From a virus: DNA of 41,981 nucleotides. Under the pieces are notes generated by a model, which was given only the letters and a program-made list of their open reading frames with translations, had not been told where the DNA came from and made no database searches. Position numbers and translations under genes: made by a program. Numbering within the stretch: the first letter of the stretch is position 1; every line of letters begins with the position of its first letter. The DNA lies in IMG/VR virus record IMGVR_UViG_3300036800_000051, positions 1 through 41,981 of that record; one strand, 5' to 3'. Shown here in pieces: positions 8,460 through 40,065 of this stretch.

Positions 8460-9554
8460 TCATGGCCCGTAGGGTGGGTCGACGATCGTGGAAGCTACAG
8501 ACGCGTAGGTTGGCCCCGCGGCAGGGGATCCGTGATAGAACGTGCTCGTGTAGCCGGCCCCTGAGTTGTTGCGATAGTTGTTGATCTGCACCCAGTTCGC
8601 GGACTGGTCAGTAGCCCCGGGGATCAGCGTCGGATAGTGCAGTGTCTGGGAACCACAACCAGACAGCGTTGAGGAGTCAGAGCAGGAGAACGTGACCGGC
8701 TGGCCGTCTTCCCAGAGCTGAACCTCGCCCACACCGGGACTCGTGGAGAACACCATGTGTTCGATGAAGTCGTGCCACTTGCCGTCGGCTGCGAGATTGC
8801 CTCGCCAGAGCGTCTGTCCGCCCCCTGAACGGCCAGACGTGTTCCCACCGTAGCCGAACACGGTGCAGCCGCTGGGGTTCTCGTAGGCGTTCAGGCCGTT
8901 GCTCGGCGACCCGCTCGTCGGTGCTCCGAACTGCTCGTTGAACATGTCCAGCGTGTTGGGACTGGACCCGATGTGGCAGGGCAGCCCGTTGACCGGGATC
9001 AGGATCGGAATCGAGATGTAGTAGGACCCCGGCGCGATGAAATGCTTCGAATCCCAATCCAGGCGCTGTTCACACGACCAGGCGCACGTCTGCGGAGTCA
9101 CCTTCTGCTCGAGCACCGTCTGCCCGGAGCCAAGCGGATCAGGAACGCAAGTGTTCACGGCTCCGTCTGACGTGGTGTAGCCCGGCGCCGGGTTGATCGA
9201 AGCCCACAGATTGGAGCCGCCGCACGACGAAGCGAACGAACCAAACCACGTCGTCCCAGCGCCCGTCGGATTGCCCGCTGCTACGGCTTTGGGAGGATGA
9301 ATAGCCCCGACGCGGCGTTTCCCGCCCGGGACCGGCTTAGGAGCGGGATGCTGGTTGTGAGCGCGCCGGCGAACCCGGCGACGAACATGCCGAGCGCAGT
9401 TGGCGTGGTGGTGAGGGTGATGGCGATACGTGCAGTGACGGTGGTGGTGAACTCGGTGGTAGGCGCTCGCTGCTGGCGTAGCCAGGAACAGGGGACCAAG
9501 CAGGGCACCAGCCAAGCAGCCGCACACGACGGGCACACGGGAATAACGAAGCAT
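8460..9554 (-). CDS. Secreted polysaccharide-lyase-like protein
   Basis: 364 residues from ATG 9554, chosen because a GGAGG ribosome site lies eight bases upstream and the protein then opens with a clean signal peptide (VVCGCLAGALLGPLFLATPAASA). A His/Arg-rich linker follows (HHHRHCTYRHHPHHH). Residues ~150-364 look like a jelly-roll domain of the heparin lyase I type (PF14099-like): GKWHDFIEHMVFS, VQLWEDGQPV, WVQINNYRNN. Six or more cysteines suggest disulphides. The role could be degrading host capsule or wall polymer at release, or a lysogenic conversion function. The family call is from pattern memory only. Confidence 0.55.
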   Translation of the reverse strand: MLRYSRVPVVCGCLAGALLGPLFLATPAASAYHRVHHHRHCTYRHHPHHHANCARHVRRRVRRRAHNQHPAPKPVPGGKRRVGAIHPPKAVAAGNPTGAGTTWFGSFASSCGGSNLWASINPAPGYTTSDGAVNTCVPDPLGSGQTVLEQKVTPQTCAWSCEQRLDWDSKHFIAPGSYYISIPILIPVNGLPCHIGSSPNTLDMFNEQFGAPTSGSPSNGLNAYENPSGCTVFGYGGNTSGRSGGGQTLWRGNLAADGKWHDFIEHMVFSTSPGVGEVQLWEDGQPVTFSCSDSSTLSGCGSQTLHYPTLIPGATDQSANWVQINNYRNNSGAGYTSTFYHGSPAAGPTYASVASTIVDPPYGP

Positions 9555-37551: not shown

Positions 37552-40065
37552 CTAAACGAAGATTCCGGGACCTGAACCGTTGTCGGCCATCGCCGGGCGT
37601 TTCAACCGTTTCAGGTGATGACGAAGAATCCGGTCCTTCTGCGTCTCGTTCGGCCTCGGCATATCCACATCAGGCTTCAACGGACGCGCCATAACGATAT
37701 AGCGAAGCGCGTCCAAACAATTCAGGACAAGGAGCCCGTTTGCGAAAAATTCCGCGTGACCGTAAACCGTGAGGTTATGAACCGGCGAGCTTCCGGCGGC
37801 GTGATTCGCTACCACACGCACGGGAGCAACACTGCTGCCGGGAATACTTGTTGACTCGAAACGCTCCCCCGCAGACCGGGCAATCTCGCCTCTCGTCGTC
37901 GACGCCCGACGCTCGACGCCACGCCGATTTGCACTTATTGGAGCAGAACCGGTCCAAGTCACGCCGGGTGACGCATTCGAAGTCTGCGCCGCAGTGGTCG
38001 CAAACACGGGGGACAGATACTCGAGTCTCCCAGGTAGCCCTGCCGTGCTCGCTGTGCCACGCTCTGCCTTCCGGCGAAGAATGCCAAGCCACCGCCAGCG
38101 GCCGGATCGTCTCGGCGTGCCGTCGCGCCCGCTCGACACGTTCGGCGTCCATATGCAACGCAATGTGCTCAGCCCGGGTGATGCATTCCAGGTTGGCGAT
38201 AGCGTTATTGAGGGGGTTCCCGTCGCGATGGTGTATATCCCAGCCGCGGGGGATAACGCCGTGAGCGGCCTTCCAAATCTCGACGTGCAAGTCGCCAACA
38301 CCTTTGCGACGGTCCGCCACGTGCGGTCGAAAGTAGACGCGATCTGCTCTCTGCTTCGCGTCCAGATACCGACGGAAGCGAACCCCTTGAAACTCGACCA
38401 TTTCGACTCGTGACACAACAACATTGTATCGCCACACCGAACAGCGTCGAGACGCAGAACACGCTGACAGCCATCGCGTTGCACAACACACGGATGGTCT
38501 TCAGAGCCGGTCAACTCTCGACCATCCTCAAAACGCAACGTTCTCACCGCGGTCGTCCGAGTTGGTGCTGACGCCACAACCGTGCAATAGCCACCGCGGG
38601 TGAGTACCCGATCACCAAGCCTCACCGCTTCGATCGCAACATCACCACGCGCTGTCGCGACCAGCGTCCCCGCAACAAAACAATGGTTGTCGCGGTCCAC
38701 CGGCCGCTCCGGCGCAGCGTTCTCCGTTCGCGTTGAATCTTTCATCCACCGGTACTTTTTGAACTCCTCGCGCAACACCACACAGTTCGCCGTCACCCGC
38801 AAACGGTCAGCCTCGAGCCGCTGGCGAACCTTGTCGATACCTGTCCGCTCGTTCGTCTGCCCCGGAAACGTGTAAATCCCATGGTCAGCAAACTCCTGCT
38901 GATCACCCCGACCCGTCTGATTATTCCGATTCCGGGCCGCCGGATCGATCACATACCACCGAGGCTTCACCCGCCACCGATCGTTACGATTACCAATCTC
39001 CGCGCAAATATCCCGGATCGTCTTGTCCTTGAGCGCGATCTCGTCAAACACAACCATCGTGTCCGCCTGATCGAGATAGCAGAACAGGACCGCGCACAAA
39101 TGGCGGATCCCCGGGTCGATCCCCGCGAACACCTCCACACCCTCCGGGACTGATGAGAGCTCCGGGATCACATGCTCCCGAGTGAACTCCGGGAAGATCA
39201 ACCCCGCGAACGCGCTGAACTTCCCCGACTTGCGCGACGCCCTTTCCTCGCTGCTCAACCCCGACAAAACCCACTGCTTCGCCTGCTCATTCAAATACGG
39301 GTTGTCGTCCATGTCCACGACAACGATCCGAACATCCTCGTCGGACAGCTGCCCACGCTCCCACGGCGCGAAAAACTCGTCGTAAATCCAGTTCATACCA
39401 TGCAACGGCGTACACCCATACAACTCTTCGCCGCCATAATCAATCAGCCGCATCAAACACTCACGCCGAATATCCGCCCGCGGCTCCTCGTCATACACAA
39501 CCCGGTGCAAGGCCGCCCCGCCGAACTTGTCGAGATCCTGGTCGTTCGAAAAAAACTGGACCCACGACCCATTCTTGAACCTCAACATCCGCGCGACCTT
39601 GTCCCACGCCCGATCAAAACTTCCGCCCTTCAAACTCTCCCGCGGACACCACTCCCGGAACTTCTGAAGAACAACCCCCTCCATCGTGTTCGTCAAATCC
39701 GGAGTGACCACCCGCCCATAAAAAGGAGGCTCCCACCGCTTGAACCCCTGGAGATGTTCAGGAACCAGCTCCCAATCCAAGCACTGCACGATCGTGTCCA
39801 CCATCGTGCAAGTGCTCTTCCCCGACCGGTTGCCTCCAAGAAACAAACGGCTCGGAGGATGCGGCGCCCCCATAAACACCTGCTGCTTCTCATGCGGCTT
39901 GAACGCCAACAGAGGATTGCGTTTGAACGCCTCCTCAACCTCCCGCAACTGATCCGCAACCAGCTGCCGCTCCGCTTTAGGAAGCCTTGCGAGAGCGCCC
40001 GGATCAATCTGAAGGCCGGCCAGGGAGAGGCTCGCTGGCGAACTGGCCCCAGAGGGCTTACCCAT
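37552..40065 (-). CDS. terL: Terminase large subunit with intein
   Basis: 837 residues in one frame. N-extein: Walker A GGNRSGKST (residues 77-85), Walker B VVYDEEP (~189-195), nuclease acids in AGIDPG (D317) and YVIDPA (D374). At residue 461/462 the frame enters an intein (CFVAGTLVATARGD...) and leaves it at residue 782/783 (...LLVLN|CLDALRY). It thus splits the conserved third nuclease motif DHxLDALRY. C-extein: 55 residues. After splicing the enzyme (~516 residues) would be an ordinary ATP-driven packaging motor and headful nuclease. It overlaps the XRE gene by eight bases. Confidence 0.85.
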   Translation of the reverse strand: MGKPSGASSPASLSLAGLQIDPGALARLPKAERQLVADQLREVEEAFKRNPLLAFKPHEKQQVFMGAPHPPSRLFLGGNRSGKSTCTMVDTIVQCLDWELVPEHLQGFKRWEPPFYGRVVTPDLTNTMEGVVLQKFREWCPRESLKGGSFDRAWDKVARMLRFKNGSWVQFFSNDQDLDKFGGAALHRVVYDEEPRADIRRECLMRLIDYGGEELYGCTPLHGMNWIYDEFFAPWERGQLSDEDVRIVVVDMDDNPYLNEQAKQWVLSGLSSEERASRKSGKFSAFAGLIFPEFTREHVIPELSSVPEGVEVFAGIDPGIRHLCAVLFCYLDQADTMVVFDEIALKDKTIRDICAEIGNRNDRWRVKPRWYVIDPAARNRNNQTGRGDQQEFADHGIYTFPGQTNERTGIDKVRQRLEADRLRVTANCVVLREEFKKYRWMKDSTRTENAAPERPVDRDNHCFVAGTLVATARGDVAIEAVRLGDRVLTRGGYCTVVASAPTRTTAVRTLRFEDGRELTGSEDHPCVVQRDGCQRVLRLDAVRCGDTMLLCHESKWSSFKGFASVGIWTRSREQIASTFDRTWRTVAKVLATCTSRFGRPLTALSPAAGIYTIATGTPSITLSPTWNASPGLSTLRCIWTPNVSSGRDGTPRRSGRWRWLGILRRKAERGTASTAGLPGRLEYLSPVFATTAAQTSNASPGVTWTGSAPISANRRGVERRASTTRGEIARSAGERFESTSIPGSSVAPVRVVANHAAGSSPVHNLTVYGHAEFFANGLLVLNCLDALRYIVMARPLKPDVDMPRPNETQKDRILRHHLKRLKRPAMADNGSGPGIFV
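37720..38682 (-). other. Intein in the terminase (Hint domain, 321 codons)
   Basis: Begins at Cys (38682) and ends at Asn (37720), with Cys as the first residue of the C-extein. N-half blocks A and B: CFVAGTLVATARGDVAIE and LTGSEDHPCVV with the block-B His. C-half blocks F and G: VHNLTVYGHAEFFANGLLVLN. The penultimate residue is Leu instead of the usual His, which some inteins tolerate. The middle ~200 codons of the terminase frame are Arg/Ser/Thr-rich and match no fold, because they are the shadow of the HNH gene encoded in another frame (37775-38401). Confidence 0.75.
37775..38401 (-). CDS. HNH endonuclease nested out of frame in the intein
   Basis: 208 residues from ATG 38401, in the frame one base back from the terminase frame. 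The HNH_3-type core has WDIHHRDGNPLNN and ANLECITRAEHIALH. Two Cys4 zinc modules follow (CDHCGADFECVTRRD...CSNKC and CPVCGGAF...CCSRAC). Its stop (37775) falls just before block F of the intein. It fills precisely the site of a homing-endonuclease domain but is not fused to the splicing domain. Initiation may be weak (only GAG near ATG) or use frameshifting. Confidence 0.75.
   Translation of the reverse strand: MVEFQGVRFRRYLDAKQRADRVYFRPHVADRRKGVGDLHVEIWKAAHGVIPRGWDIHHRDGNPLNNAIANLECITRAEHIALHMDAERVERARRHAETIRPLAVAWHSSPEGRAWHSEHGRATWETRVSVPRVCDHCGADFECVTRRDLDRFCSNKCKSAWRRASGVDDERRDCPVCGGAFRVNKYSRQQCCSRACGSESRRRKLAGS

Follow-up and report, generated by a model that had tools for sequence, protein, structure and literature searches.

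We report that the terminase large subunit (TerL) gene of the viral DNA analysed here (the window, the whole stretch of 41,981 nucleotides) very probably harbours a mobile contiguous intein whose homing endonuclease is an HNH protein in its own right, with its gene in the -1 frame of the linker DNA. Inteins are usually described as a Hint domain with a fused nuclease, or as Hint alone. In the explanation that we propose, the TerL frame would be translated straight through as Hint-N, a disordered linker and Hint-C, and the Hint domain would then fold, excise itself together with the linker and restore TerL. The HNH protein would be made separately: its start codon would lie where Hint-N ends, initiation signals are seen there, and it would use either its own promoter (start 6 nt past a -10 box) or a Shine-Dalgarno sequence, with translation stopping within the Hint-C coding DNA. 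The nuclease would cut intein-free TerL genes near NH|xDALRY, and repair would copy the element in. Over the overlap, selection would preserve the amino acid sequence of the HNH in one frame and mere openness in the other, as is seen in relatives. The features of the element in the window are the following:

37552-40065, minus strand: TerL precursor ORF, comprising N-extein, intein and C-extein (837 aa, no break)
37720-38682, minus strand: intein, Cys1 to Asn321, followed by +1 Cys (Hint_2 match, boundaries, Foldseek)
38407-38682, minus strand: Hint-N, intein residues 1-92, with blocks A and B (AlphaFold2 pLDDT 94-97)
37843-38406, minus strand: linker in the TerL frame, residues 93-280, predicted to be disordered (pLDDT mostly <50) and overlapping the HNH gene
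37720-37842, minus strand: Hint-C, residues 281-321, with blocks F and G (high pLDDT, AlphaFold2)
37775-38416, minus strand: HNH nuclease gene in the -1 frame, 213 aa from the preferred GTG, with ATG 38401 as alternative start (HNH_3, PHROG, model)

The precursor was recognized as TerL by Terminase_6N (Pfam) and PHROG terL matches, and Hint_2 was detected at residues 462-510 of its ORF (1e-8, Pfam). Within the precursor the intein extends over 321 residues from Cys462 to Asn782, directly before the +1 Cys, which reproduces exactly the 37720-38682 assigned to a terminase intein by the first-pass annotation. That this is a Hint intein is borne out by the Pfam match, by the confidently modelled halves and by Foldseek matches of the model to gp41-1, GyrA and Hedgehog Hint structures; in the AlphaFold2 model, obtained from an alignment of 37 sequences, both Hint halves have high confidence and the 188-residue linker almost none. 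The intein ends as for cis-splicing (Cys1, Asn321 and +1 Cys; 137 of 145 relatives likewise have Cys or Ser first, Asn last and then Cys, Ser or Thr), and an intein-free homologue, the TerL of Cellulosimicrobium phage DS1, aligns across the junction of the spliced window TerL (DNHCLDALRY in the window versus NDHAFDSAKY in DS1). Block B of the window reads SEDH, with Ser for the Thr of TxxH and His63 kept, and the penultimate residue is Leu (a Leu-Asn end), the penultimate His being absent; splicing activity of this copy is therefore not assured.

The HNH frame, one base back from the TerL frame, lies within the linker DNA and is complete, with two zinc modules. Its product matches HNH_3 (3e-14, Pfam) and PHROG HNH (1e-39) and yields a model of mean pLDDT 96. 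Its stop codon, TAA at 37777-37775, falls in the H-N codons of block F. Foldseek with the HNH model gave no significant match (I-HmuI, E 0.65), and phmmer with the protein gave none against PDB and NCBIfam. An HNH gene had previously been placed at 37775-38401; its stop at 37775, two zinc modules and frame hold, and the start is revised, GTG 38416 being likelier than ATG 38401. Among 33 sequences, the window being part of the alignment, His57, His58, Asn66, Asn70, His79 and eight Cys are invariant. These residues bear on the possibility that the window copy is decayed, either a splicing Hint with an HNH relic or an active HNH with poor splicing. The penultimate Leu and the block B Ser would fit such decay, and no close relative of the window intein on which selection could be tested occurs in the sets searched, nor a near relative of its virus in the phage collection. 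However, the HNH frame is free of stops, its model is confident and it carries the invariant His, Asn and Cys residues of its relatives, as derived with the window in the alignment, and we consider decay unlikely.

A tblastn search with the HNH revealed the nested layout in three annotated terL genes, those of Tetrasphaera phage TJE1, Rhodobacteraceae phage LS06-2018-MD07 and Acinetobacter phage Highwayman, in whose records the nested HNH is unannotated. A set of 249 loci, from three IMG/VR scans together with phage-collection and bacterial loci, was classified by purpose-built profile HMMs for Hint-N, Hint-C and HNH. The viral scan with the window HNH as lone query returned no relatives, an alignment query being required, and the search of genome contigs gave four relatives, one of them nested (L097, from a Selenomonadaceae MAG). 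The nested layout, with both Hint halves in one ORF, was represented by 158 distinct HNH genes, the HNH lying at -1 in all 158 and in frame with Hint in none. As GC content in the first locus set ranged from 0.32 to 0.67, the openness of the Hint frame is more than a high-GC effect. In 17 further loci the layout was split, the Hint halves being found on separate ORFs with the same HNH family between them, and 35 loci showed an HNH without detected Hint, many of them a free gene next to an intact terL; free-standing HNH genes of this family stand beside terL in Pseudomonas phage PAE1 and Sphaerotilus phage SN1. Two overlapping frames, one for a splicing-type Hint host protein and one for a separate homing-type nuclease, as first suggested for the window, are the best-supported reading and recur in more than 150 divergent loci.

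In the window alone, the Hint frame contains no stop codon across the HNH when about 2.4 are expected, a weak result (P 0.015 to 0.04). The family was therefore assessed through 145 one-ORF representatives at 70% identity, in which no Hint-frame stops were observed across the HNH against 284 expected from synonymous codon shuffles and 565 expected from the codon usage of neighbouring genes, while the unused third frame contained 2389 against 2555 expected. HNH genes outside one-ORF inteins, taken as controls, showed no avoidance (136 observed and 136 expected in split loci, 171 and 165 in free ones). Furthermore, a Met whose next residue is K, N, T, I or M forces a Hint-frame stop; such pairs occurred at 0 of 193 Met in nested HNH proteins versus 21 of 90 in the others. 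Since the one-ORF class is defined by openness, the absence of stops is to some extent a matter of definition, and the dipeptide count is a consequence of it; the informative part of these statistics is the number of loci, the single frame and the controls. The result that is weak for the window alone becomes decisive with the family. Shuffling also gave about 2 expected Hint-frame stops per nested HNH gene at -1 versus about 18 in the third frame, so that -1 is the easy frame for nesting this HNH family.

Selection was assessed independently of openness by asking, for 11 pairs of closely related sequences, in which codon phase substitutions fall. They peaked in Hint-N at the third position of the Hint codons, in the overlap at the second (position 3 of the HNH codons) and in Hint-C at the third again, the phase switching at both junctions. 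In the same pairs, dN/dS in the overlap was 0.23 for the HNH frame and 1.38 for the Hint frame of the same DNA; the two Hint halves gave 0.27 and 0.10, and the extein 0.06. Phase switch and dN/dS together indicate purifying selection on Hint and HNH in the relatives and none on the linker peptide. Thus, as regards constraint in the two frames, a point raised by the first-pass annotation, in the relatives the HNH frame is constrained, as are the Hint halves, and the linker peptide of the Hint frame is not. The middle of the intein, earlier described as 200 codons that look like nonsense, is the 188-residue linker, predicted to be disordered and showing the elevated ratio in the relatives.

The nested HNH genes carry start signals of their own. 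They begin with ATG in 132 of the 145 representatives, with GTG in 8 and with TTG in 3, and the nearest upstream in-frame stop lies at a median of 12 nt and within 30 nt in 74% of the relatives. Shine-Dalgarno pairing at the starts is above background (p 9e-20), and a -10-like TANNNT box is found exactly 6 nt before the start in 35 of 145 loci, versus 1 to 3 at the other offsets tried; a -35 element peaks at a spacing of 16 nt from this box, and an extended -10 is present in 21 of the 35. Loci with the box tend to lack a Shine-Dalgarno, and vice versa (p 3e-7), as expected if leaderless-type and Shine-Dalgarno-led starts are alternatives. At the other end, the HNH stop lies inside the Hint-C coding stretch in 145 of 145, and 79 of these stops fall at two sites that block F determines. 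The window has the box-type signal, so its nuclease probably starts at GTG 38416. Together with a neighbouring motif and the TerL target site, discussed below, it is located as follows:

38423-38450, minus strand: predicted promoter-like site, TCGACG (38450-38445), 16 nt, TACAAT (38428-38423), then 6 nt to GTG 38416
38434-38448, minus strand: TerL-target-like DNA motif GACGCTGTTCGGTGT, candidate operator (10/11 positions)
37699-37713, minus strand: TerL target-site motif GACGCGCTTCGCTAT, coding for DALRY in the C-extein, 6 nt after the intein (11/11 positions)

An independent scan returned TCGACG-N16-TACAAT-N6-GTG, spanning 38450-38414, as the sole promoter-like site in 37700-38750. The first-pass annotation had left the choice between internal initiation and -1 frameshifting near AAATGG. 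Programmed frameshifting, which would yield a Hint-N-HNH fusion in part of the translation events, would agree with an HNH that is always at -1 and with a window -1 frame open back to 38491. Against it stand the ATG codons, the Shine-Dalgarno or -10 signals and the upstream in-frame stops of the relatives, which close the HNH frame, and in the window the overlap holds no slippery heptamer and AAATGG shows no sign of a frameshift site. Frameshifting is not supported and has a small probability; independent initiation of the HNH, to which start signals and upstream stops point, is favoured.

The host frame could also be a non-splicing in-frame insertion tolerated as a TerL loop. Indeed, an out-of-frame HNH in an open host gene without Hint has been described for the ShiLan domain and the Pacc40 insertion of phage methylases (PMC11855218), with the same relative frame as in the window. 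The host gene there is another one, no Hint or splicing domain is present and the HNH is only remotely similar (E about 0.001). The window is not of this type, as Hint is found on both sides of its HNH (Pfam, AlphaFold2): the nuclease sits between the parts of a complete Hint fold that has Cys1, the terminal Asn and the +1 Cys, the Hint halves are under purifying selection in relatives and the insertion site is the TerL nuclease motif. A tolerated loop is, in our estimation, highly improbable. Even less credit is due to assembly or sequencing indels at both junctions masking an ordinary in-frame Hint-HNH-Hint fusion, an explanation invited by the metagenomic origin of the window and by a linker that reads as nonsense: the same frame is found in 158 distinct loci and also in finished isolate genomes, which already refute the explanation, and the HNH genes have their own starts and stops. 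The two compensating frameshifts envisaged earlier are hence rejected, and the out-of-frame layout is confirmed as a real mobile-element architecture rather than a sequencing error. A group I or II intron removed at the RNA level, suggested by the frequency of HNH genes in phage introns, can be practically dismissed, as there is no Rfam match at E up to 1, the host frame is open throughout and the Hint halves are conserved.

All exteins examined that had a family match were TerL, mostly interrupted at a (D/N)H|xDALRY-like motif, and the insertion point is a conserved motif of the TerL nuclease; the HNH family is tied to this one TerL site across the three layouts. The DALRY-spelling DNA motif GAYRCNNTNMGNTAY also occurs about 20-60 nt upstream of the HNH start. 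Its mean matches are 9.8/11 in split and 8.9/11 in free loci versus 7.4 in shuffles, and at least 10 matches are found in 43% of nested loci versus 1% of extein windows, in a comparison where motif definition and test share the same data, part of the motif overlaps the -35 element and part of the frame-0 signal could be protein-level. As the motif lies in different Hint-N frames (DALRYGD, LIQSDI) and in non-coding DNA, what is conserved is apparently the DNA sequence itself. The promoter of I-TevI, immediately before its ORF, is overlapped by an operator that resembles the homing site (PMC2988022), and the target-like motif before the HNH start suggests, by analogy, a similar operator. As with the I-TevI autorepressor, the putative operator of the window overlaps a predicted promoter before the nuclease ORF; I-TevI is a GIY-YIG enzyme, whereas the window nuclease is an HNH with its site inside intein coding sequence. 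The upstream motif showed no locus-specific match to the TerL site beside it (core identity 0.62 with its own site and 0.63 with others, p 0.78), so there is no support for specificities that co-evolve or for a target copied recently.

In the unrooted HNH tree, the three layouts (nested, split and free) are intermingled, with 13 changes, at least 3 of them forced by starred branches; a single origin of nesting is not shown on this tree. The nearest relatives of the window HNH by tree path are free-standing genes. A broader reading, which we hold at somewhat less than even probability, is that one stretch of intein DNA encodes the end of Hint-N and at the same time serves as nuclease promoter, autorepressing target-copy operator and nuclease start, and that the element passes from one to another of three forms (free-standing, split-intein and nested), nesting always at -1 because this HNH family leaves few stops there and Hint-C supplies the stop.

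Several known systems resemble parts of this arrangement. In full-length inteins of the PI-SceI type, as in the window, the nuclease-coding stretch splits Hint at the usual place and the target is a conserved motif in an essential gene, but their nuclease is an in-frame domain, whereas that of the window is a separate -1 frame protein. Dassa and colleagues reportedly described, in 2009, fractured genes, in which a nuclease gene separates the two halves of a split intein. There too the nuclease is encoded separately between the Hint halves, although these are separate ORFs, whereas in the window they form one ORF and the nuclease overlaps it fully. That work is cited in PMC3229294. The free-standing genes of PAE1 and SN1 share HNH family and neighbour gene with the window and, unlike it, lie outside any intein. 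Full-text searches of the literature, in a corpus that mostly excludes subscription papers and preprints, brought up no intein that is contiguous and has its nuclease out of frame, so that priority is not assured; the earlier suggestion of a new form holds to this extent, and is tempered by the ShiLan insertion (PMC11855218) and the fractured genes, which were already known.

With the nuclease on a gene of its own that overlaps the intein completely, splicing and homing can evolve separately, and the layout forms a bridge between contiguous and split inteins, free-standing HNH genes and ShiLan-type insertions. It also renders testable how a hidden nuclease is expressed, the question raised by ShiLan, in terms of a dedicated promoter or ribosome-binding site within host coding sequence. 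For the start chosen in the ShiLan paper no ribosome-binding site was detectable (PMC11855218). In Mycobacterium phage ShiLan (L250:8516-9100) the hidden HNH lies at -1 and has a second in-frame GTG at 8594, with GGAGG 4 nt upstream.

Some further loci depart from the simple layouts. Lactobacillus phage CL2 (L090), Brochothrix phage BL3 (L092) and Vibrio phage 1.238.A (L093) hold apparent split inteins, in which the annotated TerL appears to end in the Hint-N half and is followed by the HNH and then by Hint-C with the TerL C-terminus on separate ORFs, these downstream ORFs being partly unannotated. A free HNH stands beside a second, partial TerL DALRY copy, located before it in L198 (2041-2083) and L200 (140-179) and after it in L219 (2693-3712), as if the HNH gene had inserted at the same site in TerL, leaving a replacement 3' end behind. 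A single TerL ORF (L057:656-3874) contains two inteins at different sites with a -1 frame HNH in each, and two others (L071:98-3676 and L080:2-3694) combine an in-frame LAGLIDADG-type domain with an out-of-frame HNH intein. Finally, the PHROG profile phrog_30251 ('terminase large subunit', 799 columns) matches the nested-intein TerL L068:53-2449 over nearly its full length, so that the intein seems to be built into the profile.
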